Below are positions 1-14,081 of a stretch of 64,000 bases of DNA, piece by piece. The stretch lies in contig JAVTVY010016164.1 in the NCBI GenBank assembly GCA_036873755.1, positions 1 through 64,000 on the forward strand, in the 5' to 3' direction. The notes below the pieces were generated by a model. The model searched no databases, was not told the DNA's origin, and was given only the letters and a program-made list of their open reading frames with translations. The stretch comes from Hanleya hanleyi (Eukaryota; Mollusca; Polyplacophora; Lepidopleurida; Hanleyidae). The translations under genes were made by a program, and so were the position numbers. Position 1 is the first letter of the stretch, and every line of letters starts with the position of its first letter.

Positions 1-255
1 TCACCCTAATTCAACCTTCCACCCAGTCCATTAGATAGCCCTTCAACCTTATCAAAAGTATCACGTACCAATGAATATCTAGCAGAAAAAAATTTTTGGC
101 TATCCCCAGCTCCAAAAAGGCTATTTTTATACCCCTTCACTGCCGCGCATGCGCAGAAGGGTGATAGTTCAATCCCATACCCAGTGCATCAGATGCCCCT
201 TCACCTAAGCTTCAATTTGATACCTCACTCGACCCCATTGGCCCATTAGGGGCTT
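1..255. repeat. Copy of the CGCATGCGCA / ACCTCACTCGACCCCATTGG repeat family
   Basis: This stretch has the same module order as the units at 5404-6840: a CAAAAAGGCTATTTT block, a CGCATGCGCAGAA box, a CACCCAGT..ATCAGATGC block, a CCTTCACCT box and TGATACCTCACTCGACCCCA. It lies in the orientation of the left arm of that palindrome. I see no gene in it. The copy appears to start outside the window. Confidence 0.75.
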
Positions 256-262
256 CCCTAGA

Positions 263-510
263 TTGGCTGTTCCATCAACCTTCCCTCCTCCCGACCCCGC
301 CCCCTTTTTCCCTGCCTTGTTTTCAATATTTAATTGTTAAAAAAACATATAAAATGAAAAAGATTTTTTTTGGCGCCATGAATCTTTTTTTCCTTGTTTT
401 TAAAATAAAAAAAAAATTTTGGCTGTTCCATCAACCTTCCCTCCCCCCTTGTCCCCCCCTTCTAATTCCCCTTTTTCCGTTTTTTCAATATTTAATTGTT
501 AAAAAATTGA
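263..510. repeat. Two-copy tandem duplication, period about 156 bp
   Basis: TTGGCTGTTCCATCAACCTT begins at 263 and again at 419, and both copies run through a C-rich stretch into TCAATATTTAATTGTTAAAA. The rest is AT-rich filler and short open frames without coding character. Confidence 0.75.
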
Positions 511-578
511 AAAAATTGAATTTTTTTTCTTTGGGCATAACAATGATGGGGTCTGATGTTAATTTTTGTGCAAAGTTA

Positions 579-621
579 GAAGTTCCTCTTCCGGGGAAGA
601 TGGTTGGCCCTCAAAAGGGCC
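579..621 (-). terminator. Histone-type 3' end (stem-loop plus HDE-like block) of the RING gene at 646-1251
   Basis: Read on the minus strand, 621-606 is GGCCCTTTTGAGGGCC, a perfect 6-bp stem with a 4-nt loop, preceded by CTAAC and followed by AACCA. This matches the metazoan histone mRNA 3' stem-loop geometry (GGYYYU, 4-nt loop, ARRRCC, then an ACC-rich flank). It begins 24 nt after the TAA stop. About 10 nt past the stem is CCGGAAGAGGAACTTCT (595-579), a purine-rich block placed like a histone downstream element, the U7 snRNA pairing site. The same block recurs at 2484-2500 plus and 2884-2869 minus. The loop ends in G where C is usual. Use of the histone pathway is inferred. Confidence 0.75.
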
Positions 622-645
622 GTTAGTGTTACTCCACCACCACAC

Positions 646-1251
646 TTACGCACGGTAGATTTTCTTTATCCCTCCTACATGTTTCCGGCAAATTGGACAT
701 TTTATTTTCAGATGGTTCTCGCCGGCCTCAGTGCAATGGCACATGTCTCCTACACACGTCAGTGTCACCCAACAACCCGCACATAGGCATAAATGACCGC
801 ATGGTAAAACAGCAAACTGCCTTTCGGCATCTGTACATATGCTACAGCGTGATATTTTCTGCTCTTTATCCAGTTGTCTTTGATTCTCCTCGTCCATTTT
901 AATCAGGTCTTCTTTCAGTCCATTAATCAAGTTGTTCAGGCGAGTTATCTCGGCTTCACATCCACAGCATTGTTGTGGTGGAGTTTCGGCGGTAGTTGAA
1001 ATTTTCTGCGTCATATGCATCCTTAGTCTTTCCAATTGGTCATTTTCTTCAACAGTTCGCCGGAGTTGTTCTAATTCTTCTGTACTGCGTGTTAAGATGG
1101 TTGTTTCGTCTTCCAATTCCCTTTGAAAACTGGTGGTTACCCTCATTCCATCATTTTCCTGAACGCTAACCAGCTCTCTGTGTTCTGTAGCAGCATTGCT
1201 CGGGACCCTAGCGGGGTGTTGTGTAAACAGCGCACGTCTTGTTGAATTCAT
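646..1251 (-). CDS. RING-finger protein A (virus-like cluster), probable E3 ubiquitin ligase
   Basis: The gene encodes 201 residues. The N-terminal 40 or so are polar, residues about 45-135 are rich in Glu, Gln, Leu and Arg and look coiled-coil, and a C-terminal RING finger spans 136-188. The zinc ligands are C136, C139, C151, H153, C157, C160, C185 and C188, with the IAP-like LPCGH core and a CPIC final pair. RING domains of this kind recruit E2 enzymes; an E3 role is inferred. The start is fixed by a TATAAATA box on the minus strand at 1294-1287, which puts the ATG at 1251 just inside the transcript. The gene is divergent from RING protein B, whose RING has almost the same ligand spacing, so the two are probably paralogs. 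It ends in a histone-type stem-loop. It is intact; the family beyond RING is not recognised. Confidence 0.85.
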   Translation of the reverse strand: MNSTRRALFTQHPARVPSNAATEHRELVSVQENDGMRVTTSFQRELEDETTILTRSTEELEQLRRTVEENDQLERLRMHMTQKISTTAETPPQQCCGCEAEITRLNNLINGLKEDLIKMDEENQRQLDKEQKISRCSICTDAERQFAVLPCGHLCLCAGCWVTLTCVGDMCHCTEAGENHLKIKCPICRKHVGGIKKIYRA

Positions 1252-1286
1252 GATTGTATGGGTGAATAAATGTCACAATATACACG

Positions 1287-1472
1287 TATTTATACTTTTA
1301 GTGGTCTGTGGGAGGTGGGTACAAGATGGCCGCCATGTGGGAGGTGGGTACAAAATGGCCGCCATGTGGGAGGTGGGACAAGATGGCCGCCATGTGGGAG
1401 GTGGGTACAAAATGGCCGCCATGTGGGAGGTGGGTACAAGATGGCCGCCAAGCGTGTCTTACACTATAAATA
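1287..1472. promoter_or_regulatory. Bidirectional promoter between the two RING genes
   Basis: A TATAAATA box on the minus strand (1294-1287) serves RING A (ATG at 1251). A second TATAAATA on the plus strand (1465-1472) serves RING B (ATG at 1516). Five 29-bp repeats lie exactly between them. The distances from TATA to ATG are about 36 and 44 nt. The symmetric arrangement indicates one shared upstream activating array driving two genes. Confidence 0.75.
1308..1451 (+). repeat. 29-bp promoter repeat array, five copies
   Basis: Five head-to-tail units begin at 1308, 1337, 1366, 1394 and 1423; the third is 28 bp. Each has a G-rich half (GTGGGAGGTGGG) and a half reading TACAAGATGGCCGCCAT or the AAAATGG variant. 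The second half resembles the YY1 site AAGATGGCGGC. The same unit occurs 15 times upstream of the DNA polymerase at 11490-11998, oriented the same way relative to that gene. Confidence 0.9.
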
Positions 1473-1515
1473 CCACATTTTTTTAATTATTCACAATTAA
1501 TCTGAGTGCCCAGTC

Positions 1516-2430
1516 ATGGATTCACCCTTGGTTCAACTCATGGATATTGACAACACATCAGATTTGTTCACAAATCATTATAATCAAGTACAACGCCTCA
1601 ACAGTATCATGAATTTGGTACGCGATGAATCCCGATTAGATGCTATAATCAACCACTTATTCTCACCTTTACCTGAACCCCAGAACTACCCTGCACCAAC
1701 TCATTGTGAACATCCTCCAGAAACATCGCCGCTGGATAATTTCTTCGCCTTGACAACAACCACACCGGATGTTACTCCAGATGTATACCAAAGTTTTGAT
1801 GATATAGACGAGATGTTACAAACCATGTTAAAACCCCCAGAACCAGAGACGACAGAAGATGGAACCGATTCAAATGCCTCCTATCATTCCGGAGACGAGC
1901 AACAACAAGCACCAGATGAAATTGATTATATAGACGAGATGTTACAATTTTCCTATGATTCCGGACAAGAACAACAACAACAAAAGAAAAAAGATTTAAG
2001 AAGGCTGAGGCCAGACGCCGGAGAAAAGAGAAAAGATACCAGATTGAGGAGAAATAGACCACATCAAGACAGGAAAAACAGAAAAGATGTGAGAACAAAG
2101 AGGCTAAGAGACAGGAAAATAAACCCAGAAAAACAAATCCAAGACGAAATCAATTATGTATGGACATTAACAACAACAACAACAGTCGGACGGACCACAG
2201 AACGGCAAAGAGATTTGTATATCCATTGTGTAGAATGCGCGAATGCATTTTCGAAGTTCGCTATATTTCCTTGTGGACACCAGGGAATGTGTGAAAGCTG
2301 CATCAATCACCACGCTAAGATACCATCGTGTGCAGAGGCGAATAAACCGATAGTTTGTCAATTGCTTCCTTTGACGTGTCCTGTGTGCGCTCAGAGAAGA
2401 AGACAACAGATCTTGTCAACAACGATGTAA
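1516..2430 (+). CDS. RING-finger protein B with acidic N-terminus and basic middle (virus-like cluster)
   Basis: The gene encodes 304 residues. About the first 155 are acidic and rich in Asp, Glu, Gln and Pro, and contain the motif IDEMLQ twice, each in an acidic context. Residues about 160-215 are strongly Lys/Arg-rich and could be a nuclear-localisation or nucleic-acid-binding segment. The C-terminal RING uses C238, C241, C253, H255, C259, C262, C288 and C291. The spacing is almost that of RING A (11 residues between pairs one and two, 25 versus 24 before the last pair), which suggests paralogy. The start is the first ATG after the TATAAATA at 1465-1472. The acidic-basic-RING layout suggests a nuclear regulatory E3 ligase, which is inference. 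The gene ends in a canonical histone-type stem-loop. It is intact. Confidence 0.85.
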   Translation: MDSPLVQLMDIDNTSDLFTNHYNQVQRLNSIMNLVRDESRLDAIINHLFSPLPEPQNYPAPTHCEHPPETSPLDNFFALTTTTPDVTPDVYQSFDDIDEMLQTMLKPPEPETTEDGTDSNASYHSGDEQQQAPDEIDYIDEMLQFSYDSGQEQQQQKKKDLRRLRPDAGEKRKDTRLRRNRPHQDRKNRKDVRTKRLRDRKINPEKQIQDEINYVWTLTTTTTVGRTTERQRDLYIHCVECANAFSKFAIFPCGHQGMCESCINHHAKIPSCAEANKPIVCQLLPLTCPVCAQRRRQQILSTTM

Positions 2431-2456
2431 TATGGCTATATTACATATATTCCAAC

Positions 2457-2500
2457 GGTTTTTTTAAAAACCACCCAGCTGTTCCGAGAGGGTGACTTCT
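2457..2500 (+). terminator. Histone-type 3' end (stem-loop plus HDE-like block) of RING protein B gene
   Basis: GGTTTTTTTAAAAACC at 2457-2472 forms a 6-bp stem with loop TTTA. It is preceded by CCAAC and followed directly by ACCCA, the textbook histone stem-loop flank. It begins 27 nt after the stop codon. CCGAGAGGGTGACTTCT at 2484-2500 sits where the U7-binding element of histone genes sits and resembles the blocks at 579-595 and 2869-2884. An AATAAA at 2580-2585 further downstream could be a back-up polyadenylation signal. Confidence 0.8.
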
Positions 2501-2868
2501 AGCAAAGCACAAAAATAATTTAACACGAGAATCACACCCCTGTGTTCATCACGAGAATCACACCCCTGTGTTCGTTCAAAATAAATGCCCCACTCTTATC
2601 AAAATAAATTCCCCTTGCATACCGGGATCGTTATCTTGGCACTGTGTAATATAAAGTGCATTATACCCTTGCACTGTCATATTAAATTAATTAATTAATG
2701 AATGGGGAAAAAACAAAATAAATTCTGTGTGTGTGTATATAGAGAGATTTGTCCTCATAAGGACATTTGATATTTGGCCAGGGATTGTTTATTTGGATGA
2801 ATGCAGTTTTAAAAAAAGAGAGGAAAATGTGGGACAATCTGTGCTTTCAAATTCATGTGCTAGTATTT
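2501..2868. other. Spacer between convergent 3' ends; short direct repeat
   Basis: No gene is seen. A 25-bp direct repeat containing GAGAATCACACCCCTGTGTT occurs twice at about 2522-2572. AATAAA signals lie at 2580 and near 2604. The remainder is AT-rich with a short GT run. Confidence 0.6.
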
Positions 2869-2932
2869 AGAAGTTCTCTTTCGGAGAAATTTATATTTTT
2901 ACGTGTTGGTTTCACGTGCCCTAAAAAGGGCA
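2869..2932 (-). terminator. Histone-type 3' end (stem-loop plus HDE-like block) of the gene at 2972-3505
   Basis: On the minus strand 2932-2917 is TGCCCTTTTTAGGGCA, a 6-bp stem with loop TTTT, preceded by TCAAC. It begins 39 nt after the stop codon. The first stem pair is T-A instead of the usual G-C. CCGAAAGAGAACTTCT (2884-2869) follows 32 nt downstream, a wider gap than in histone genes. An AATAAA on the same strand (2958-2953) lies between the stop and the stem-loop, so polyadenylation is an alternative. Confidence 0.65.
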
Positions 2933-2971
2933 GTTGATTATTTTAACGTGTTTTTATTCACGGGGAGTAGC

Positions 2972-3505
2972 TTACATCCCATCTGTCACGGCCGGGAAAT
3001 ATCCATACGGGGTCCGCGTACCTACATACACGATATCTACATCCTCAAAATTGGATAAGTTGTTAAGAAAATTAGCCGCCGCTATGGTGTTCGTCGATGG
3101 TGGTGGTGGTGGTGAGGGTAGGTTGACTGGAATATCCTCAAGGGGAAACGGTTTCTCTCCCTCCTCCCCCCCTTCCTCCTGTAACTTGGGTGGCGGTGAC
3201 GGCGTTTTGGCTAAGGGTGTTGTTAACGCCGCCGGAGCAAGAGGGGTGGAGTTGACCCCTTCCCCCATCACCTGGCTGAGTGTTTCAAACCAATTGGACT
3301 CATTCATCGTGGAATGCGCCTCTGCCAACACAGCTCTCACATTCTGGGACATCCTTCGTTCCCGCCTGGTCTGTTGGAGTATTCCATCACCCATCCTCAA
3401 TGCTTCTACCCAGCTGCTCAATTCTCGTGCCCAAAATACTTTGACCGCTTTCAACATTTCCGCTCTTTGTCGCCTGGAGATATGTTTCCGTGCACCGCCG
3501 CTCAT
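2972..3505 (-). CDS. Unknown 177-residue protein of the virus-like cluster
   Basis: I do not recognise the family. The start chosen (ATG at 3505, protein beginning MSGG) lies about 66 nt downstream of a TATATA box on the minus strand at 3579-3571; an in-frame upstream ATG at 3631 would precede that box. The N-terminal half is basic and probably helical (many Arg, Glu and Trp, including an RRQRAEM segment). The middle is rich in Pro and Glu with a PSPPPPPS run. The last 35 or so residues include an acidic hydrophobic stretch (FEDVDIVYVG) that may be a short conserved tail. No membrane segment or zinc motif is visible. The frame is open and the antisense open frame at the same place is a shadow. 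The histone-like 3' end matches its two neighbours, which supports membership of the same element. Confidence 0.65.
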   Translation of the reverse strand: MSGGARKHISRRQRAEMLKAVKVFWARELSSWVEALRMGDGILQQTRRERRMSQNVRAVLAEAHSTMNESNWFETLSQVMGEGVNSTPLAPAALTTPLAKTPSPPPKLQEEGGEEGEKPFPLEDIPVNLPSPPPPPSTNTIAAANFLNNLSNFEDVDIVYVGTRTPYGYFPAVTDGM

Positions 3506-3570
3506 TTTTTCGCTCTCTGTCTTTGTCGGGTTGAAAAATATTTTGTGATAGAGCATTGGCAGGGGATGGC

Positions 3571-3579
3571 AGTATATAT
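3571..3579 (-). promoter_or_regulatory. TATA box for the gene at 2972-3505
   Basis: The minus strand reads CATATATACT here. Initiation about 30 nt downstream would fall near 3545, leaving a leader of about 40 nt before the ATG at 3505. Confidence 0.5.
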
Positions 3580-3639
3580 GTACTTGGCGCGGACCTCGGC
3601 GAAATCGTTCATGCAGAAACTTAAAAAACATTTTGGCGT

Positions 3640-5403
3640 GTGTTTCTTGGAATTTTATAAAAGGTGTATCATTTTACAATCAGCATTAGTCCCCGTAGAA
3701 TTTTAGTTCGAATTCATCTCACATAAATCAAGCACTCGTATTAAAAATTTCAGCCGTATAGTCCCTTGTTTACGTCATAATTTTTAATTTTTAGTGGGTT
3801 TTCGAGCCGTCACGAAAATACAGAAAACTCCACCCATTAAAAAATAATTAATTTTCTTCGTTAAAAATAGAGCAAGTCGATCCCATATTATTCGATACGA
3901 ATACCCTGAAAATTGCAGTTCGTTTCGTTCATGAGAACTATAGAAAAATTAACAAAACACAGCCTTTATTGACGATGAAAAAACACAAGCCATACCGTTT
4001 TTCCAAAGTCACGCGCTGTATAAGAACAGCTCTACTCGATGCGTATTTTTAATACTAGACAACGCTACAAAAGCGCGGACTGCATGCAGAGCAGTCTAAA
4101 GCTAATCTATAAGTTTCGTAGGAAATCATTTCGTTGAAAACACCGTTTGTCACTGCAGAGTTTTGCCCCCTTATTCCATTAGGGAACCAAGAGTTATCCT
4201 TTTATTTGACTATTTTTATGGCATTATTGTTGTTTTGTGACACTGTGGAACTGTAAAAATTCCATGAATGGAAAAGAATGCCTATCAAACCTACGAGTAT
4301 TGAACTGATCCAAATCAACAATGGCTGACGCCAATATTTAACCCAGAGAATGACACCCAAAACAGAAAATGTTTCAAACAGATAGTTCTACAGAATGTTG
4401 TTTGCTAATATTTTGAATGAATACTATAGTAATTGCATTTTACCAGTGACATAAGTTTCAGAACACAACAATATATATTTCTCAAAAAATCAAACAAAAC
4501 GTTCTCAATAGATTAGTTGGGACACACAACTAATTTATGCCACGGTATCTATTTTTACAGCTGTCAACTGTTATGGTTTGGTCACTATGTTGCGATTCAA
4601 CGCAAGTATAGTACTAGCTTACCTGATAAAAGAAGTTTAGTCCAGATGTATACCATATCTCCCATACTCCCGGATGTATAATGCATATCTGTGGCTGTTT
4701 TTTTCCTAGGTGGGATATAACACACCATGCATTTGTATGCTAATCGAAATTCACATATTTCCTTCGGTATATAAACCGGCGCATACGAGAGATATCAGCT
4801 GAGCTAACGGCCTCAATTGTCTGTCAGCTCTGTTGTTGTTGTTTCAGCGCACACGGTGAGCAAAAGTTTCAAGAAATTGATTTCAGTTCCCGCATAACGT
4901 CTTCTTCAAGTCCATTTTGAAGAGTCGAGCGTATGAATCGAGTCAAAATAACATGCTGAGCTGTTTGGCTTGCATTCACCGTACACACTCCGCGCGAGAC
5001 GAAATTAGTTTAATATTTTTCCCCCCGCCTCGCGGTTCAGCCAATGAACTATTAGAAAAGCATATGTGTGTGCATATTAATAAAACCACGGGCGCCTAAA
5101 AAATGAACACATTTCATTACACTGTAGCGAATTGTTGCCATTGCACGTGTGAGTCAGTACGTTTTCATATCCACCTCAAATTGACACGGAGAATTTCATT
5201 GCCAGTAAAATTGTAAGTTCATTGCGGAAAGAATTGATATTCCATAAATTCCTGCGGGAAATAGGAAGTACACATATATAAAGAATATTGTCTTCACGTA
5301 AAAGTTTGTACATTTCAAAAAAAAAATTTTCAAAACAAAACAAAAAATGTGAAGTAAAACCCGTCCTTCGGATGGGAAAGTTGTTTTGAACTGTAAACAA
5401 AAA
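3640..5403. other. No gene recognised
   Basis: The stretch is AT-rich and has no open frame with coding character on either strand. A TATAAAAGG at about 3656 on the plus strand has no reading frame behind it. The only promoter-like site is at 4768. Confidence 0.5.
4768..4855 (+). promoter_or_regulatory. Possible core promoter and short non-coding first exon
   Basis: TATATAAACCGGCGC at 4768 resembles the TATATAACC..CCGGCG box of light chain gene 2 (35335). About 85 nt downstream is a good 5' splice site, CACACG|gtgagc, at 4855/4856. This could be a first untranslated exon of an unidentified plus-strand gene. There is no direct support for transcription. Confidence 0.25.
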
Positions 5404-6282
5404 TTTTATTTTGAGGTAGAGGGTCGAGTGAGGTATCATATTGAAGCTGACGTGAAATGCTTCACATTGATACCTCACTCGACCCCATTGCACCACTAGG
5501 GGCGCCTCTAACCCCAAAAAAAGATATTTTGAAGATTACGCATGCGCAGAATGCTGATAGTTCAACCCACACCCAGTCTATCAGATGCGCCTTCACGTCA
5601 CCTTCAATTTGATACCTCACTCGACCCCATTGGACCATTAGGGACGCCTCTAACCTCAAAAAGGCTATTTTGATGTTTTGATGTTTTTCATATTATCTTC
5701 GCGCATGCGCAGAATTACCCTAATTCAAGCCCACACCCAGTCTATCAGATGCTCCTTCACGTCACCTTCAATTTAATACCTCACTCGACCCCATTGGACC
5801 ATTAGGGACGCCTCTAACCTCAAAAAGCTATTTTGATGTTTTGATGTTTGAGATGAGATCATCAAAACATCAAAATAGCCTTTTTGAGGTTAGAGGCGTC
5901 CCTAATGTCCAATGGTACTATAGAATGAGAGGCTGACAGAAAGGCATCGTGAGCTGGGTGTGGAGATCAGGCGCCTGCGCATGCGCGAAGATAATATGAA
6001 AAATATCAAAACATCAAAATAGCCTTTTTGAGGTTAGAGGCGTCCCTAATGGTCCAATGGGGTTGAGTGAGGTATCAAATTGAAGGTGACGTGAAGGCGC
6101 ATCTGATAGACTGGGTGTGGGTTGAACTATCAGCATTCTGCGCATGCGTAATCTTCAAAATATCCTTTTTGGGTTAGAGGCGCCCCTAGTGGTGCAATGG
6201 GGTCGAGTGAGGTATCAGTGTGAAGCATTTCACGTCAGCTTCAATATGATACCTCACTCGACCCACTACCTCTAAAATAAAA
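5404..6282. repeat. Large near-palindrome (foldback) of the CGCATGCGCA / ACTCGACCCCATTGG family
   Basis: The arms mirror each other around about 5853. The outer edge TTTTATTTTGAGGTAG at 5404 pairs with CTACCTCTAAAATAAAA ending at 6282, and the inner edge is CTATTTTGATGTTTTGATG against CATCAAAACATCAAAATAG with a 13-nt centre. Each arm is about 430 bp and holds two to three units of about 150-190 bp. The best-preserved units carry an NRF-1-like CGCATGCGC box. The right arm has a rearranged section at about 5915-5970. It has no coding capacity. Confidence 0.9.
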
Positions 6283-6840
6283 AAAATCTTCGTACACCAG
6301 ATTTTGATGTTTATCTTAAAAATAGCCTTTTTGGCGTTAGGGGCGCCCCTAGTGGCCCGATGGAGCCGAGTAAGGTGTCAATGTGAAGGTGAGATGAAGG
6401 GCCATCTGATGGACTGGTGTGGGTTGAACTATCAGCATTCTGCGCATGCGCGGTGGCCCGAGGGTATGAAAATAGCCGTTTTGGAGCTAGCGAAGCCAAT
6501 AATGGTCCAATGGGGTCGAGTGAGGTATCAAAGTGAAGGTGACGGGAAGGAGCATCTGATAGACTGGACTAGCGGATTTGAAATAGCGTCATTCTGCGCA
6601 TGCGCGGTGGCCCAAGGGTATGGAAATAGCCGTGTTGGGAGCTAGGGGAGTTACTACTGGTGCAATGAGATCGAGTGAGGTATCAAAGTGAAGCTTAGGT
6701 GAAGGGGCATCTGCCTGGACTAGCGGATTTGAAATAGCGTCATTCTGCGCATACGCGGTGGCCGAAGGGTATGAAAGTTTATTGAAGCTAGTGAGGTATC
6801 CATGTGAAGCCTAGGTGAGGGAGTTACACTAGGGTGTCGT
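6283..6840. repeat. Direct repeats of the same family, right-arm orientation
   Basis: Three to four further units follow, with TGCGCATGCGCGGTGG boxes near 6440 and 6596 and a degenerate one near 6748. GGGGTCGAGTGAGGTATCAA-type and GTGAAGGGGCATCTG-type modules recur. The unit length is about 130-170 bp, and identity falls toward 6840. Confidence 0.8.
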
Positions 6841-7110
6841 ATCCATTCTGTTGCGCAGGTCACGTGGGGTTGTGACGTCACTTCCGGGTTTTTCACTGAA
6901 ATTACCTCCAAACATAGAAGAGTTCCTAATGTTTCCCCTTACACATCCGTATGTTCAACCTCCGGCACCTTTTCCCGCCCTGCCCCGCCCCGGCCGCAGC
7001 GCGCGCGCGCGTTCTCCGGAAGTGCGCGTCATTCCCGGTAGTGTGCGCGCGCGCGCGCGGACGCGGGTCAAAAGGTCAAAGGGTGACCTCCAGGTCAGAC
7101 GGTCCAATGT
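6841..7110. promoter_or_regulatory. GC-rich cluster of transcription-factor-like sites
   Basis: In 270 bp there is an E-box CACGTG (6861), a full CRE TGACGTCA (6873), an ETS-type CTTCCGG (6881), two (GC)n tracts (about 6999-7011 and 7043-7059) and a nuclear-receptor-like AGGTCAAAGGGTGACC (7073). The composition is unlike the AT-rich neighbours. I see no gene start that it clearly serves. Confidence 0.35.
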
Positions 7111-7171
7111 CCAATGGGACAATGAAAATGATGATGAAAAAACACAATGATGGGTTTTGACTTTCTTTTTT

Positions 7172-7177
7172 TTTATT
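7172..7177 (-). terminator. AATAAA polyadenylation signal downstream of polymerase and tRNA
   Basis: The minus strand reads TTAAATAAAAAAAAAG. It is about 255 nt after the polymerase stop and beyond the tRNA-Leu, so it would serve the polymerase only if the transcript runs through the tRNA. Confidence 0.35.
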
Positions 7178-7298
7178 TAAGTCAACAAGCAAGGATATAT
7201 ACAAATATAGAATACAGGGTACAAATAGTAGAGGTATGTACACACATAGAATAGTAGTAGTATATACAAAAAAAAAAAAACAAAAAAAAAAAAGTTTT

Positions 7299-7382
7299 GT
7301 CAGGAGTAGGATTTGAACCTACGCAGGGTATCACCCCACCGGCACTTAATACCGGCGCCTTAGACCACTCGGCCATCCTGAC
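7299..7382 (-). tRNA. tRNA-Leu (anticodon UAA)
   Basis: The 84-nt gene folds as a class II tRNA. The acceptor stem is GTCAGGA/TCCTGAC, the D arm is GCC..GGC, and the anticodon stem CCGGT/GCCGG carries the loop ATTAAGT with anticodon TAA. The long variable arm (GGG-TGATA-CCC) is diagnostic of Leu or Ser, and the T arm is GTAGG-TTCAAAT-CCTAC. Both internal promoter boxes are intact. A long T run on the minus strand just past the 3' end is a Pol III terminator. It is on the same strand as, and 50 nt downstream of, the DNA polymerase stop codon. An open frame spanning it is only its translation shadow. Confidence 0.96.
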
Positions 7383-7432
7383 TTTTACAGTTTTTATAAC
7401 TCGTGACTCCACAGTTATTAGTGTTCCACATT

Positions 7433-10400
7433 TTACAAGTCCAAGTAGGTAGTGCTCACACCGTCGGCCAATACTTTCCGTTTCGGATACAAGAAAGTAA
7501 AGGCGTCTCGTTGCTGGATATAGGTCCGCATCTGGTGGTCCACCATCCGGAATCCTCGGTTGGTCCCACTGGCACTGGCCTGGCTCTGCAATACGCCCAG
7601 GTAGAGAGCTTTGTCGATGGCAGGGTCACGTCGGTTGACGCCTTTACAACTAAACTTGTTGTTTCCATCTCCTCCGTAACAATAGTAGGTCTTGGACGAC
7701 AGGGCGATCATGGCATCTCCGCTCCACTCCAGCTTGAAGAGCCCCGGCGTCCGCTTGTCGTAGGTGTAGTGGTCGCGTCGAGGTAGCCACAGGTCCCGAT
7801 CCGCTTCATATTGTTCCCGTAACTCGGGTTTCACCAGGGACTCCCAATCGGCGTTGGAGACGGCCATGTAGGCCGAATCTGTGTCCATCTCCATCAACTG
7901 CCAGTCTGAGGGATTAAAATAGACACCCATGAAGTCGTAGAGAAACTGCAACATCCTCAGCTTGGCCACCTGATAGACCATACATCCAATCTGCAGGGGT
8001 AAATTATACCGGATAGTCTTCTTGGCTGAAGTGACTTCATAGGTGTCGTCATCGATGACCTCCACGGACCGAAACAGTGGAGAATTGACTTTTTTGCGGG
8101 CTTGGGTAGTCGTGCAAATGTTCACATTGACGTGCTTATCCTGATTGGTTACCGTTTTTCCATAATAACCATTGCCAGTGAGTTTCCAACATTCAGCCAT
8201 GATGGCCTGACTCGGGTATTCATCACCTTGACGACGGGCCGCCGTGACGAGCTCGGCATTCTCCGCAAAACAAGCCTCGGGGACGTACTGTATCACTTGA
8301 TAGATTTGAGTAATTTCCAAACCGTGCTTCATGTACCACTGCAGTAAGGGGGTGCCCAGCAATATTTTGTGCGCCCACATACTTCCAATCAACATGCGGC
8401 GTGGTTGAGGTAAACACTCGTGTTGCTCTGCGTAGGTGCGCATGGTCTCCCCAATATCATCCCGACCCACCAGCGTATTCTTGAAGATAGGCGGACACTG
8501 GGCGAAGAGGGGCTTGAGAGTGTCGGGAACATGCAGGTCGCATTCTACAAAGCCGTAGAGCTGCCCCGAACGAATGGCGTCCAACATCTGTGGCAGACTC
8601 AGCAGTCGCCGACGACTCAACGGGTACTCACGCTCTTTTAGGAACCGTTGTAAATGGGGGCGGGCCTGGCACATGGTGTGAAATTCACACTCCCACATTT
8701 CAATCAAATGGTATCCTCGCTCTTTCACATAATCTCCGTTGGCCACTACTTCCTCCCGTAATTCTAATGGTGTTTTCCCGCGTCGCTCATTAAAACGACC
8801 CGCGCTGAAATGACATTCGTGGCCGTGCCAGTAACAGCCATAAAACTGGAAAACAGTGGGTGTTCCTTGTACATGGGCAAACCCATCGACGGGGAGACGC
8901 CGATCGCCTATCCGCTTCTCAGTGGCGTTGGTCTGGTGTCGTATATAAATACCCCGTCGATAGGCTTCCCACTCCAACCACTGGTCGGCAAGATGTTTGT
9001 GAGGCAACCGTTGGGGTGTAAAATGACGCCCTTCCGCCAACCAACGTGTATAATGACCACTGGGCATAGGTTGGGCCAACGACCACAGGTACAGAGCATT
9101 GGCATCGAATCCAATGATTTTGGCAACGGGTTTTCCACTGGGGAGAGTAGTGACATCCTTCTCGTGGTAGCGGTGAAAAATAAGACTGGGCCCGCCCACA
9201 ATGTTATCTTTTAGACAATTATGCATGTCCGCATCTTTCTGTTGTACCAGCGAGAAGTAAGTGGAACACTCTTGAAACAAATGGCGAAGGGCCAGCCCCG
9301 GTAAACTTAAGCACTCTTTAAAGATGTCCACGTGCATTTGGCGTTGAAAAAGTTGCACCATTTTCTCGGCCGCCTCCAGGAAAGGAACCACATCTAGGTT
9401 GTTGTACCATATGAGGAAATCTTCCAAGGTCTGCATATGTTCATCGTTCCATACCTGCTGTAGTTCACGGTACGTGTCTTCCGGACATTCCACTTGCTTC
9501 AAATCATCAAAGAAGGCGTGCCGAGATGGCAACTGTGTTTCCTGCAAACGGTCGAGCGATGATATATACGTGTAAGGGAACCTCCCTTTGGTTTGTGCAC
9601 AGTTATAGGCCTTGACCCACTGATCATAGCTACAATTAGGAGCTAGGTAGTTGCGCACGTCCAGGAAATGCAGTGACGTAGTAGTGAGGGCCATGTGGTT
9701 GTTGATCTTCTTGATCACCGACTTGAGGGTATTCGCCTGGGCCAAGTAAGGGTAGAGAAATTCCTTCACCATGTTCAGATCGTAACGGCCCGAGTTGAAG
9801 CCGAGCACCGGTAACTGACCTAGGTATTGTAGGAAGCGGGCTTTCAATTTCTCCGCATACGGTTTCGGTAGGGATACATCCTGCGACTGCAGAGGCTGCG
9901 ACTGCAGGGACTCGGACTCGGACTCGGACTCGGACTCGGACTCTTCATCATCGCTGAACGCTACACCGGGTACAGGAATGCGGTCGTCCAGTTGGTCCAG
10001 TACGTCATGGAACTTGGCCACCAACAATTCCGTACTAGCCGCACTCACTTGCTCTAAATACTCCATCATGCGGGTAATCAACTCATGGGAGTCCCCCGTG
10101 GACACGAAACACACCGGAGCAGCGTCATAGCCAGGTACGTTGCTGGAAATACTGACACTCAGAGGAATATGGCGCTGCGTCCACTGCGTTTTGGCTGAAA
10201 ACATGTCCATGGGCTCCAACAGGGCCTCGAAATCATAACACGCCCGGTAGGGAAAATAACGGTCCTCTTCCGGTATGATGAGTCCCTCATCGGCCAGTTC
10301 CTGGAAAATAGTAGGTGCATTATGATACACGCCACCCGGATAGACTCGCTTGACACTGTTGTCACAGATTTTCTCGTGGCGATGTAAGTCGGTGGAGCGA

Positions 10401-11350
10401 TGAAACACCCGATGGCATTGGGCACAACTGAAAGACTGAGCGTACTGGCTCATATTGTGGATCAGCGAAAAATGACTCACGCCATTGTCGTCGAACACAT
10501 TCACTTTCATCGTAGCAGCATACCGTTCTGTGGATCGCCGAACCAATTCAGCCACAAATGTATCGTCATCCTCCCGTCGTAATCGATAGACAAAGATATT
10601 AATATGAAACAGGGACTCCACGTCATCCAAATGCTTGAAGGGGACACCTCGGAAGTGCCGCTTATCCATGTCTTGCTGCTCTAAATATTCTTCCCAATAG
10701 CCATCGGCCACTGTGTCACAACTCCGGGAGTAACACTCGTCCACATGCACGGCCAAACACCGAAACAGACATTTGCGGTCTTTGTAGGGCCCCTTCGCCC
10801 CTACTGTTAATGGATACAGGCCGTGTCGATGAAGCAACCACGGAGGAAGTAGTACAGGAGCACCGATCGGATGATCTCTCATTTTCGTGACGAAAAATGT
10901 GACGTTAGTCACCATTTGCACCAACCATTGTGTATTGGGGCGTTGCAGGCGGGCCCACTCCAACGGGTCTAATGTAGTGAGTTGCTCGACCACCGGCTCC
11001 AGAGAAATGGCATCCGTGATGGTGAATGGCTGGTCAAACACATACGAATTATTACTCGGATAGAAATACCGCAGCTGGTCCGTCTTTTTGTGCCGTAAGA
11101 TATACCCAAATGTCACATTCAATTTGAAGGCAGTGACCTGATCTTTAAAAATGTTCTCGGCGTAAATAGGAAGATACGTGAGGTCCTCCAACCGAAAATT
11201 ATACAAGTCCAATAGACGACGGTCACGGTGGAAACAATGGCGTATGGTAGCCCAGTGACGTTGATAAATGTCCCTGACACGCTCATCTTCAGGCAAGACT
11301 TCAACCGGAGGTACTGCTGGGTCAAAGGGAAAATCTTCTCCACGTCTCAT
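7433..11350 (-). CDS. Protein-primed-type family-B DNA polymerase, Polinton/adintovirus-like, endogenous
   Basis: The gene encodes 1305 residues from the ATG at 11350, the first Met after the TATA box at 11468. Residues about 188-295 resemble an OTU-like domain (D191..C194 in DRKCLFR, H293 in VSHFSLI), as seen near the N-terminus of some Polinton polymerases. A C2H2 zinc finger follows at about 309-328. The 3'-5' exonuclease has motif I D373/E375 (YDFEALL) and motif II FNSGRYDLN near 521. An acidic Ser-Glu repeat (about 465-480) sits inside the exonuclease half. Polymerase motifs are A (D749 in GFDANALYLW), B (KLTGNGYYGK, 1056-1065) and C (D1156-T-D1158), with a Lys-Thr-Tyr motif near 1217. 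Between A and B lies the VDGF..FYGCYWHGH segment (about 817-845) usual in this group. No stop or frameshift is present, so the gene is recent or maintained. It would replicate linear DNA. No partner capsid or integrase gene is in the window. Confidence 0.93.
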   Translation of the reverse strand: MRRGEDFPFDPAVPPVEVLPEDERVRDIYQRHWATIRHCFHRDRRLLDLYNFRLEDLTYLPIYAENIFKDQVTAFKLNVTFGYILRHKKTDQLRYFYPSNNSYVFDQPFTITDAISLEPVVEQLTTLDPLEWARLQRPNTQWLVQMVTNVTFFVTKMRDHPIGAPVLLPPWLLHRHGLYPLTVGAKGPYKDRKCLFRCLAVHVDECYSRSCDTVADGYWEEYLEQQDMDKRHFRGVPFKHLDDVESLFHINIFVYRLRREDDDTFVAELVRRSTERYAATMKVNVFDDNGVSHFSLIHNMSQYAQSFSCAQCHRVFHRSTDLHRHEKICDNSVKRVYPGGVYHNAPTIFQELADEGLIIPEEDRYFPYRACYDFEALLEPMDMFSAKTQWTQRHIPLSVSISSNVPGYDAAPVCFVSTGDSHELITRMMEYLEQVSAASTELLVAKFHDVLDQLDDRIPVPGVAFSDDEESESESESESESLQSQPLQSQDVSLPKPYAEKLKARFLQYLGQLPVLGFNSGRYDLNMVKEFLYPYLAQANTLKSVIKKINNHMALTTTSLHFLDVRNYLAPNCSYDQWVKAYNCAQTKGRFPYTYISSLDRLQETQLPSRHAFFDDLKQVECPEDTYRELQQVWNDEHMQTLEDFLIWYNNLDVVPFLEAAEKMVQLFQRQMHVDIFKECLSLPGLALRHLFQECSTYFSLVQQKDADMHNCLKDNIVGGPSLIFHRYHEKDVTTLPSGKPVAKIIGFDANALYLWSLAQPMPSGHYTRWLAEGRHFTPQRLPHKHLADQWLEWEAYRRGIYIRHQTNATEKRIGDRRLPVDGFAHVQGTPTVFQFYGCYWHGHECHFSAGRFNERRGKTPLELREEVVANGDYVKERGYHLIEMWECEFHTMCQARPHLQRFLKEREYPLSRRRLLSLPQMLDAIRSGQLYGFVECDLHVPDTLKPLFAQCPPIFKNTLVGRDDIGETMRTYAEQHECLPQPRRMLIGSMWAHKILLGTPLLQWYMKHGLEITQIYQVIQYVPEACFAENAELVTAARRQGDEYPSQAIMAECWKLTGNGYYGKTVTNQDKHVNVNICTTTQARKKVNSPLFRSVEVIDDDTYEVTSAKKTIRYNLPLQIGCMVYQVAKLRMLQFLYDFMGVYFNPSDWQLMEMDTDSAYMAVSNADWESLVKPELREQYEADRDLWLPRRDHYTYDKRTPGLFKLEWSGDAMIALSSKTYYCYGGDGNNKFSCKGVNRRDPAIDKALYLGVLQSQASASGTNRGFRMVDHQMRTYIQQRDAFTFLYPKRKVLADGVSTTYLDL

Positions 11351-11467
11351 GCTTTTAGTCTCATACAAGCGGATAGGCAGGCAGGAGGACTGGCTGGCGG
11401 GCTGGCTGGCTGATGAAGTCAGGTCAGGTAAGTCAGATTGAATACACCCTTTCCCTAAAAATAAACT

Positions 11468-11476
11468 CCTTTTATA
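11468..11476 (-). promoter_or_regulatory. TATA box of the DNA polymerase gene
   Basis: The minus strand reads TGTATAAAAGGAG at 11477-11466, giving a leader of roughly 90 nt to the ATG at 11350. A second copy of the same TATA segment with its flank lies at about 11575-11600, produced by a local duplication within the repeat array. Confidence 0.7.
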
Positions 11477-11489
11477 CATTTTACTACTC

Positions 11490-11998
11490 GCGGCCATCTT
11501 GTACCCACCTCCCACATCATGACACTGGCGGCCATCTTGTACCCACCTCCCACATCTTCCACTGGCGGCCAAAACTCCTTTTATACATTTTACTACTCGC
11601 GGCCATCTTGTACCCACCTCCCACATGGCGGCCATCTTGTACCCACCTCCCACATCTTCCACTGGCGGCCATCTTGTACCCACCTCCCACATGGCGGCCA
11701 TCTTGTACCCACCTCCCACATCTTCCACTGGCGGCCATCTTGTACCCACCTCCCACATCTTCCACTGGCGGTCATCTTGTACCCACCTCCCACATGGCGG
11801 CCATCTTGTACCCACCTCCCACATGGCGGCCATCTTGTACCCACCTCCCACATGGCGGCCATCTTGTACCCACCTTCCACATGGCGGCCATCTTGTACCC
11901 ACCTCCCACATGGCGGCCATCTTGTACCCACCTCCCACATGGCGGCCATCTTGTACCCACCTCCCACATGGCGGCCATCTTGTACCCACCTCCCACAC
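11490..11998 (-). repeat. 29-bp promoter repeat array upstream of DNA polymerase, 15 copies
   Basis: Fifteen copies of the same 29-bp unit as at 1308-1451 are present, here on the minus strand, so they point toward the polymerase start. Some units carry an extra insert reading ATCTTCCACTGG on the plus strand. Because 29 is not a multiple of three and no frame has a stop, the array is open in all three minus frames. This falsely extends the polymerase frame upstream by 231 codons. Confidence 0.95.
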
Positions 11999-12003
11999 AT
12001 CAC

Positions 12004-12076
12004 GCATGCGCACACCGCCCCAATACTGCCCCATTTTACACACTTATGACGTCACACAAGGTTCTGCGCATGCGCA
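12004..12076. promoter_or_regulatory. NRF-1-like / CRE / NRF-1-like cluster upstream of the polymerase array
   Basis: GCATGCGC at 12004-12011, a full CRE TGACGTCA at 12047-12054 and a perfect TGCGCATGCGCA at 12065-12076 lie immediately upstream of the repeat array in the direction of polymerase transcription. Together with the YY1-like array and TATA box this resembles a complete Pol II promoter. Factor binding is inferred from motif match only. Confidence 0.5.
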
Positions 12077-12159
12077 GTGAGGCGCTATTTCGCCAATTTA
12101 CGCCTTGTATACTACTTACCCATTTCTGGATAGCAGTATTTTAGAAGGACCTGTATACA

Positions 12160-12765
12160 GCGTATACATATCTTGACTGGTAGCATTTACTAGATCATGT
12201 GCAGACTGATACGAATTTAATCAACACTACGGAATATTACTGAGGAAACTTGTCAAACAGGGCTATACCATCAAACCAATCTGATTAAAACTCAGACTTA
12301 ATAAACCGCTCCTCTATCGGACATGTCAGCGACATGTCCGATAGAGGAGCGGTTTATTAAGTCTGAGTTTTAATCAGATTGACCACCAAACGTATCCATT
12401 CAAAGCTTCTCAAGCCCCGTACACTGACAGCAAAATGCGGTGCAAGATCGTAACCTGTGTCTCATTCCGCCTAACCCGGAGCTAGGGGTCGTTTGAATAT
12501 CATGTGTTTTACATCTACATGGTGTTCAACTGAACAGTCACAATCAAAGCGTGACTGAGATACATACATGGGAACATCGTTGAAAACTGCTGATCGCTTC
12601 TTTCCTTTAGGAAACCATCTTGTGTTTTTATTACTTTTATTTCATACACATCTGAAATTGGTGCTAACTGCCATACGAAATAAGTCTTTCGGTTATTGAC
12701 GCGGAAATTCTTTTATGGCCGACGGCTGAATATTGAATGGCGGATCGGACGTTTGCTATAGAAGA
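12160..12765 (+). repeat. Interspersed repeat family A, long copy, interrupted by a hairpin
   Basis: It aligns with the copies at 13690, 44640 and 52250. Shared blocks are AGGGCTATACCA, CTTAACCCGGAGCTAGGGG-type, GAACAGTCACAATCAAAGCG, GTTGAAAACTG..GACCGCTTCT and ATTCTTTTATGG..GACGGCTGAATATTGAATG. It has no coding capacity. The 105-nt hairpin at 12277 splits it. Confidence 0.8.
12277..12381. repeat. Perfect 105-nt hairpin (51-bp arms, AGC loop), MITE-like insertion
   Basis: The arm from CAATCTGATTAAAACTCAG to CGGACATGTC is mirrored without a mismatch around AGC at 12328-12330. It interrupts a copy of repeat family A, so it entered after that copy. The perfect identity suggests recent insertion or ongoing arm conversion. 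Confidence 0.93.
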
Positions 12766-12837
12766 AAGTCTCGTATGAGATTGTTTCTACGGAAGCATTG
12801 ATAGGACATGAGTGAAAATTATTTTTTTCGCGCACGA

Positions 12838-13052
12838 AATTTTCTCCGACCCGGAGATACTTTTCTCCGGATATTTTTGTCCGATCGGAGATACTTTTCT
12901 CCGACCCGGAGATACATCTCCGACCCGGAGAAACTTATCTCCGACCCCGAGATACATTTCCGACCCGGAGAAACTTATCTCCGACTCCGAGATACATCTC
13001 CGACCCGAAGAAACTTATCTCAGACCCCGAGATACATCTCCGACCCAGAGAT
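12838..13052. repeat. Minisatellite, 20-bp unit with internal dyad
   Basis: About ten units of TCTCCGACCCGGAGATACA type are present. The core CTCCGACCCGGAG is itself an imperfect palindrome, and alternate units give a 40-bp higher-order period in the middle. Open frames across it are repeat translations. Confidence 0.85.
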
Positions 13053-13054
13053 AC

Positions 13055-13689
13055 ATCAATTGACCAATGACAGTCGAGTTCACAAAGACCGAGCGTACGT
13101 GACTTTTGATACCCCACACATACAAAAATGGCTCGTACCTCTCGTTTGTGAATAAATAAATACTGAGCAAATGACTGGAATCTCAATTGAAAAAAAAAAT
13201 ACAGCGAAAATGTACTGGAAAAATCTTTTCAGCCAACGTGTTGACGTTTTTCGTTTAAATGGGCTTTTTTTGATTGGATTGGAGCACATTATTCGTTTCT
13301 CCGAGAAAGTCACACGAGGTCTTTGAGCCTGATATCGCCAATCTGTTGCTTTGTTCACTGACCGATTGAAATCTTATTCTAGTCCTACTGGTAAGCATTG
13401 TTGATGATAAATAATTTACTTCGCCTGTTTTATGCAACAATTGATAAAATATGTGACAAGATAAACATTAACTTCTCTGCTGTGTTTGCTTTCTGTTTCT
13501 TTCTTTCCATTTTTTTTTTGTTTTTGCCGGCCGTCAAAATTTTGGAGGACTCAAGCCCCTCCAAGGCCCCCTTGTCTACGCCCTTGAGTGTTTTTAAATA
13601 TGCACGTTGAATATTGGCATGCGGGGTCATGTGATTTCATGTCAGTACCTCGGCACCTTTTCTCACCACCTATATATTTTGCTTTTAAA
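13055..13689. other. No gene recognised
   Basis: AT-rich unique sequence without coding or repeat structure that I can support. Confidence 0.4.
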
Positions 13690-13985
13690 CACAAGATCTA
13701 TATGGCGTTACGTTTTGTAACTTGTGTCTAATTCCACTAAACCCGGGGCTAGGGGCCGTATGAACCCATGTACTTCAAGATCCTCATGGTGTTCATATGA
13801 ACAGTCACAGTCAAAGCGTGCCTGAGATAACGACTTTACAACGTTAATCATATGGATTAAGAATACTGATACGGATTTGATGTTTTTGTAACATCATGAT
13901 GTCTTGCCGGCATCGTTGAAAACTGTTGACCGCTTCTCTCTGGCAGAAAACTAGCCTATGTTTATGCATATTGTGATGTGATTTG
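13690..13985 (+). repeat. Interspersed repeat family A, partial copy
   Basis: It carries the GGGGCTAGGGGCCGTATGAA, GAACAGTCACAGTCAAAGCG and GTTGAAAACTGTTGACCGCT blocks in family order, most like the copy at 52470-52740. The 3' ATTCTTTTATGG block is missing. Confidence 0.75.
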
Positions 13986-14081
13986 TGATGTAATTTTGTT
14001 GCTAGATATTTGATCTTAGATAGGGATTTATGCTGTTTGTCGCTATTTAGCTGTCATGTTGCTGAAGGCGACTTTCTATAA

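Follow-up and report, generated by a model that had tools for sequence, protein, structure and literature searches.

Histone-type 3′ ends on three genes of a virus-like DNA element in the mollusc Hanleya hanleyi

The locus and its genes

The stretch of DNA analysed here (hereafter the window) comprises positions 1-64,000 of the forward strand of contig JAVTVY010016164.1 from the mollusc Hanleya hanleyi (assembly GCA_036873755.1), and its left 12 kb hold, in order, three small genes termed g1 (-), g2 (+) and g3 (-) and a gene for a family-B DNA polymerase (-). The small genes are best explained as genes of a multi-copy, virus-like DNA element with its own family-B polymerase, and each of them ends in a stem-loop and a downstream block of the type found at the 3′ ends of histone genes of the same host. 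Genome searches were run on the window's own assembly (2.48 Gb, 52,793 contigs), and all comparisons with related copies and with histone genes were made within this one host genome, except those with two sequences, L001 and L002, that are introduced below. The genes and their 3′ features are as follows (HDE, histone downstream element; RF00032, the Rfam Histone3 stem-loop model).

646..1251 (-): g1, a 201-aa gene with a C-terminal RING (C3HC4), single open frame; PF13920 31.3 bits, cut-off 27
606..621 (-): g1 stem-loop GGCCCT-TTTG-AGGGCC with AAC and AACCA flanks, 24 nt past the stop; RF00032 28.5 bits, E 5.5e-4
562..594 (-): g1 HDE-type block CCGGAAGAGGAACTTCT (578-594), then GCACAAAAAT (562-571); near the sequence downstream of host H3 and H1 genes
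1516..2430 (+): g2, a 304-aa gene with a C-terminal RING, single open frame; PF13920 21.7 bits, under the cut-off of 27
2457..2472 (+): g2 stem-loop GGTTTT-TTTA-AAAACC with AAC and ACCCA flanks, 26 nt past the stop; RF00032 32.3 bits, E 2e-5
2484..2516 (+): g2 HDE-type block CCGAGAGGGTGACTTCT (2484-2500), then GCACAAAAAT (2507-2516); other copies have CCGAAAGGGTGAACTTCT
2972..3505 (-): g3, a novel gene, single open frame; the listed open reading frame extends to 3631
2917..2932 (-): g3 stem-loop TGCCCT-TTTT-AGGGCA with an AAC 5′ flank and a CGTGA 3′ flank, 39 nt past the stop; 11.6 bits
2869..2884 (-): g3 HDE-type block CCGAAAGAGAACTTCT, beginning 32 nt after the stem

The RING of g1 has its best solved-structure match in that of BIRC3 (cIAP; E 7.8e-6), and the g2 RING is related to it (32% over 57 aa, E 2e-7 in a single comparison). 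Protein-database homologues of g1 are absent at an E-value of 0.001, and g3 is without a match in Pfam at E 1 and in the protein database at E 0.01; no relatives of the polymerase, g1, g2 or g3 were found in IMG/VR. None of the three small genes encodes a histone (Pfam), and tblastn of H3 and H4 against the window gave no match at E 1.

Stem-loops and downstream blocks at the gene ends

The histone stem-loop (RF00032) has a 6-bp stem and a 4-nt loop, with an invariant second G-C pair, a top U-A pair and U at loop positions 1 and 3. A sequence-only reading of the window had placed such a hairpin 24-39 nt past the stop of each small gene and on that gene's own strand, and all three were found there with the 6-bp stem and 4-nt loop described. 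The ACC-type 3′ flanks it had reported for g1 and g2, including the exact ACCCA in g2, were likewise recovered, and the AAC 5′ flank that it had assigned to two genes is present in all three. As to its histone-type assignment of the hairpins, the covariance model recognises those of g1 and g2 just under the cut-off and gives a weak score to that of g3; all three (32.3, 28.5 and 11.6 bits) lie below the gathering score of 34 bits, E-values of the whole-window search being for 64 kb and 4227 families. Related element genes in the host genome exceed this gathering score, reaching about 41 bits. When the pattern [GT]GYYYTTYYNARRRC[CA] was combined with six Watson-Crick pairs and run over both strands of the 64 kb, three sites were returned, namely the three hairpins, against a mean of 0.03 in 100 dinucleotide shuffles, and the hairpins are therefore not due to chance.

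Each hairpin is followed by the block that the same reading had written as CCGRRAGRG..ACTTCT, and a search for CCGRRAGRG-N1..3-ACTTCT gave no occurrence in the window beyond the three gene 3′ ends. In g1 and g2 the block begins 11 nt after the stem, which is within the position of the host HDE (about 10-15 nt), and in g3 the distance is 32 nt, with a small hairpin predicted in the interval. Alignment of the post-stem sequences was better than all 3000 random window segments drawn per gene pair for g1-g2 and for g1-g3 (0/3000 each), and not significant for g2-g3 (445/3000 as good). The folding energies of the 3′ regions are unremarkable for g1 (z -1.35) and g2 (z -0.95) and low for g3 (z -3.18).

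Likeness to host histone 3′ ends

A host H3 query gave 157 genome matches, several of them in tandem, and eight loci were inspected; none of these is among the listed genome matches to RF00032 that are described below. The host H3 genes end in AAC-GGCCCTTTTCAGGGCC-AACCA...CCGAAAGGGAACTTCTAACAAAGCAC, which is nearly identical to the 3′ end of g1: at the H3 locus L144 the end reads AAC GGCCCTTTTCAGGGCC AACCATTTAATCCGAAAGGGAACTTCTAACAAAGCACAAATA, and that of g1 reads AAC GGCCCTTTTGAGGGCC AACCATCTTCCCCGGAAGAGGAACTTCTAACTTTGCACAAAAAT. Stem-loop and HDE are present at 8/8 H3 loci, seven found by script, where the stem begins 29-36 nt past the last H3 codon, and one, whose top pair is a wobble, recognised on reading. 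The same type of 3′ end is carried by a host linker-histone H1 gene (L009, PF00538), such that the downstream block pointed out in the sequence-only reading does recur after the host's own histone genes. The post-stem sequences of 12/12 element cassettes (stem-loop plus HDE) are closer to host HDEs than all of 1500 random window segments. For g3 of the window the comparison was started 26 nt further on, and 1/1500 segments was as good. Since the H3 3′ ends nearly equal that of g1 and the post-stem comparison agrees, the block shared by g1, g2 and g3 is, judged by its sequence, the host HDE. The element cassettes thus resemble replication-dependent histone genes in stem-loop, flanks, spacing, HDE and the GCAC sequence that follows, and single open frames are found in both; the difference lies in the products, which in the element are RING proteins and a novel protein and not histones.

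The likeness extends upstream of g3, where the following feature was found.

3586..3612 (-): g3 promoter element ATGAACGATTTCGCCGAGGTCCGCGCC, then TATA-like ACATATATA; 3 mismatches to the element upstream of host H1

This is the sole match in the 64 kb even when 7 mismatches are allowed. It is common to g3 (10/10 loci, window included), two loci of the g2 family, L088 and one host H1 gene, and it is absent at the 8 H3 loci and 6 g1 loci that were checked. The sharing hints at common transcriptional control of g3 with H1; a general histone promoter is not claimed, given that the element stands at one H1 gene and at 0/8 H3 loci. The ATG at 3505 would fit this promoter better as the start of g3 than does the start of the listed open reading frame. 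E2F sites, sought as a sign of S-phase control, yielded a single loose match, which lies upstream of g3.

Conservation and covariation across copies

Relatives of g1 number 286 genome matches, of which 150 were listed and 20 loci, the window included, were taken for their 3′ ends: stem-loop and HDE are present at 20/20, and at 19 the stem lies 24-26 nt past the end of an open frame. For g3 (156 genome matches, those listed spanning 100% down to 35% identity and mostly stop-free) the 3′ flanks of 40 copies were fetched, picked by protein identity (35-100%) and reach of the match and hence blind to their 3′ ends. A histone-type hairpin of six pairs, with a wobble pair in one copy, is present in all 40 together with an HDE; 31 of the hairpins were taken by script and nine by eye where the script had chosen a second hairpin, and five of the HDEs, which deviate slightly from the search pattern, were identified by reading. 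Counted from GAAAGAG, the HDE lies 34 nt from the stem in near copies, with the small hairpin between, and 12-14 nt from it in distant ones. The constant place of the g3 hairpin beside the HDE was not built into the choice of hairpin.

Covariation was assessed in an alignment of 31 of the 37 distinct stems. Every cell is paired (100%), and four of the six pairs are changed on both sides; cells with changes on both sides number 32, where shuffles give 10.5 (0/500 as high), and the covariation score is 0.48 against 0.18 (0/500), falling to 0.14 or less when the alignment is slid. In all, three of five measures beat all 500 shuffles. The second G-C pair, the top U-A pair and loop U1 and U3 are invariant, and the RF00032 hallmark positions are present in 31/31 stems; the search pattern that supplied the alignment already required the second G-C pair, the top U-A pair and loop U1. 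Bacterial-type terminators and hairpins of miniature inverted-repeat transposable elements (MITEs) were considered as sources of the stem-loops and ruled out, since both the host HDE and the positions typical of histone stem-loops are retained.

A second hairpin, TGTCCT-TATG-AGGACA at window 2750-2765 (-), lies 3′ of the g3 HDE and recurs in 38/40 g3 copies. A conserved block flanks it there, and in the distant copies it takes the form AGTCCT-TGTG-AGGACT.

The element and its polymerase

The fourth gene of the left 12 kb is the polymerase.

7433..11350 (-): family-B DNA polymerase gene (DNA_pol_B_2, PF03175 36.2 bits); the ATG at 11350 is assumed and the listed open reading frame extends to 12034

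Among the candidates scored, 1027 relatives of the polymerase were found, and the organisms named among the 120 listed are lancelets, sea stars, sea cucumbers and a sea urchin. In three of four other copies of the element the polymerase stands at the predicted distance (99.5-99.7% DNA identity, 601 bases each) and at the fourth, C20230, it is missing; as it sits at the predicted place in three of the four, the genes appear to travel as a unit. A comparison of 69 g3 places (five of them selected for sharing contigs) with 150 g1 places gave a g1-g3 spacing of 2.3-3.2 kb in 29/30 linked places, the remaining pair being 6 kb apart. Twelve further full-length g1 copies, of 95-100% identity, lie on different contigs.

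The alternative that g1, g2 and g3 belong to host gene families, domesticated or never mobile, draws on the lack of database homologues for g1 and g3, on the many copies with open frames and on there being no capsid or integrase gene in view. No double-jelly-roll capsid, ATPase, protease or integrase was recognised by eye among open reading frames of at least 80 aa in window 1-14000, with Pfam run on four of the frames. The near-identical g1 copies on different contigs, the regular g1-g3 spacing and the polymerase at its predicted place all speak against such families, which we consider an improbable source of the genes. The element may continue to the left of the window.

The sequence-only reading had called the element Polinton-type, a label that rests on the DNA polymerase: the family-B enzyme is there, and the four companion genes are those that went unrecognised in the window. 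L001 carries a related polymerase (best segment 41%, with query residues 1-1274 matched), and from their gene set L001 and L002 are presumably Polinton/Maverick- or adintovirus-like. Also encoded on L001 are an integrase with a chromodomain, a protein resembling ATPases (Adeno_IVa2 at 22.0 bits against a cut-off of 21) and one resembling proteases (Peptidase_C5 at 19.6 bits, short of the 21.3 cut-off). In contrast to L001, the integrase, ATPase-like and protease-like genes were not seen in the window, and L001 is without the histone-type signals. Both L001 and L002 are recorded as sequence from a bacterial symbiont of a tubeworm, Escarpia laminata, and may represent animal-virus DNA within a symbiont assembly.

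Proposed mechanism and alternatives

Taken from their sequences, the transcripts of g1, g2 and g3 very probably become non-polyadenylated, S-phase-coupled mRNAs through the stem-loop-binding protein (SLBP) and the U7 small nuclear ribonucleoprotein (snRNP) of the host. By analogy with histone messages, SLBP and U7 binding, cleavage, the missing poly(A) tail and coupling to S phase are predicted to form one series of steps. Host SLBP would bind the stem-loop of the element pre-mRNA and the U7 snRNP would pair with its HDE, a pairing suggested by the likeness of the element blocks to the HDEs of host histone genes. The endonuclease of the U7 snRNP would then cut about five nt past the stem, and the resulting non-polyadenylated mRNA would be made, translated and then destroyed in step with S phase. 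The likely benefit is that early regulators (the RING proteins) would be expressed when the host replicates its DNA. The endonuclease acting on histone pre-mRNA is usually given as CPSF73 (PMC7026596). A case has also been made for an additional enzyme, MBLAC1, with cuts reported 5 and 7 nt beyond the stem, the 5-nt position being that of ACCCA (PMC6303110), the 3′ flank found in g2.

Several results weigh against this mechanism. The g3 stem-loop of the window scores 11.6 bits with E 2.2 in a local search of 131 bases, and its poor score goes together with a long spacer between stem and HDE. Full pairing in the covariation alignment was partly built in, as the filter required pairing and the script chose the best-pairing hairpin of each flank, and two measures were weak: the number of pairs changed on both sides (4 against 2.8, reached by 12/500 shuffles) and the number of pair types (7 against 7.4, reached by 457/500). 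The signals that the sequence-only reading had expected in related elements are conserved in copies of the same genome and lacking in L001/L002, the one relative from another host, which shows no Histone3 match and no strict hairpin. The host U7 small nuclear RNA was not turned up by a genome search that gave no conclusive outcome. When a human U7 5′ end was used as a stand-in, pairing was at background for g1 (1510/4000 as good) and g3 (756/3000) and at best weak for g2 (223/4000). A U7-like RNA encoded in the window itself was also considered and rejected: allowing up to 3 mismatches, a search with the reverse complement of the g3 block found no match other than that block itself. Lastly, possible poly(A) signals follow all three genes: ATTAAA 150 nt past the stop of g1, AATAAA 150 and 173 nt past that of g2, and AATAAA 14 (ahead of the hairpin) and 179 nt past that of g3.

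It is from these signals, within 14-179 nt of the stops, that a second explanation starts, in which the messages are polyadenylated at AATAAA/ATTAAA and the stem-loop serves as an SLBP tag for stability, export or translation, or in which both forms coexist as in some histone genes; human H2AC18 is reported to yield both (PMC9756948). An SLBP tag needs no HDE, yet the HDE is kept with the stem-loop in every one of the 40 g3 copies, down to 35% protein identity, and we regard this explanation as unlikely. That the cassettes are functionless relics of histone 3′ ends captured once would account for their likeness to host H3 ends, but is very unlikely indeed in view of the four stem pairs changed on both sides, the invariant histone-specific positions and the presence of the cassette in every g1 and g3 copy inspected, though much of the g3 flank has diverged.

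Precedents and meaning

No report of histone-type 3′ ends on genes of a DNA virus or transposon was found in the open-access literature searched. A viral sequence has been reported to match RF00032, in the RNA virus SARS-CoV-2; the match is of 14.7 bits and falls within the region coding for nsp3 (PMC7786107). The element hairpins differ in scoring 32.3 and 28.5 bits, and up to 41 in related copies, and in standing past the stop codon with the host HDE after them. Searches of IMG/VR with the hairpin pattern gave 0 matches in one case and 5 in another, 2 of them with the full hairpin; by reading, neither of the two has an HDE after it and one resembles a bacterial terminator.

On balance, we think it probable that there is an entire lineage of animal DNA viruses or transposons whose early genes are expressed as messages of the histone type and are thereby slaved to S phase via the host histone pathway. 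Were this so, a mobile element, whose gene copies number hundreds in a single genome, would own a class of non-histone metazoan stem-loop mRNAs, and the same histone-type 3′ ends would be carried by several unrelated genes of that element, with a promoter element also shared with the host H1 gene in the case of g3 and some g2 relatives. It would represent a new route by which selfish DNA couples its expression to host replication and evades poly(A)-dependent control, and its genes, as naturally occurring stem-loop genes that are not histones, would allow the requirements for SLBP and U7 to be separated from histone biology.

Other genes carrying the cassette

The genome listing for Histone3 holds 74 matches, 72 of them above the cut-off, from 75 of 360,901 candidates scored, and is not a census; 63 were inspected individually, the other 11 being on contigs already sampled. 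Of those inspected, 29 lie after g1-like genes, 9 after g2-like genes and 1 after a histone gene (H1). The g2-like L089 and L090 were assigned by reading, and their stems have one mismatch and fall below the cut-off. A third family, of about 106 aa, accounts for 23/63, in 14 with a frame ending there and in 9 by the cassette alone. Its members include L053 580-900 (-), L055, L063 and L069, which have stem-loop and HDE and, by eye, a coiled coil; the one member tested gave no Pfam match. Among 46 distinct cassettes from one set of fetched loci, an RRRAGRG block follows within 34 nt in 42, the exceptions being in L011 and L071.

The last of the 63, at L071 (1091-1535), comes after a PIF/Harbinger-type transposase: the locus carries the transposase frame (DDE_Tnp_4) and, 33 nt later, AAC-GGCCCTTTTCAGGGCC-ACCA without an HDE; a histone-like hairpin is also found on the opposite strand. 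Besides the tandem H3 genes, the host genome holds many scattered single-frame H3-like sequences of about 60-85% identity, some with stops.

Repeats and other features of the window

Two blocks of tandem repeats stand at the 5′ sides of g1, g2 and the polymerase gene.

1307..1450: 29-bp tandem repeats with a AAGATGGCCGCC core, between the divergent g1 and g2; a TATAAAT box for each gene
11501..12000: 29-bp tandem repeats upstream of the polymerase; inverted, 96-99% complementary to 1307-1450

The genes g1 and g2 are transcribed outward from the first of these blocks, which they have in common, each with its own TATAAAT box. On the strand of the polymerase, a tRNA-Leu(TAA) (window 7298-7382) begins 50 nt past the polymerase stop and is followed by a long T run; it could be a tRNA of the element or a 3′-end device for the polymerase message.

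Units of about 150 bp, many with a GCGCATGCGC-like motif, are repeated at window 5404-6776 and 103-270 and include a head-to-head palindrome with 98% complementary arms (5514-5712 and 5975-6173). L141, near the H1 gene, contains GCGCATGCGC three times and is similar in sequence by eye, and for this reason the units probably occur outside the element as well. A near-perfect palindrome with arms of about 48 nt, noted by reading at window 12284-12385, is possibly a MITE or an end of the element.

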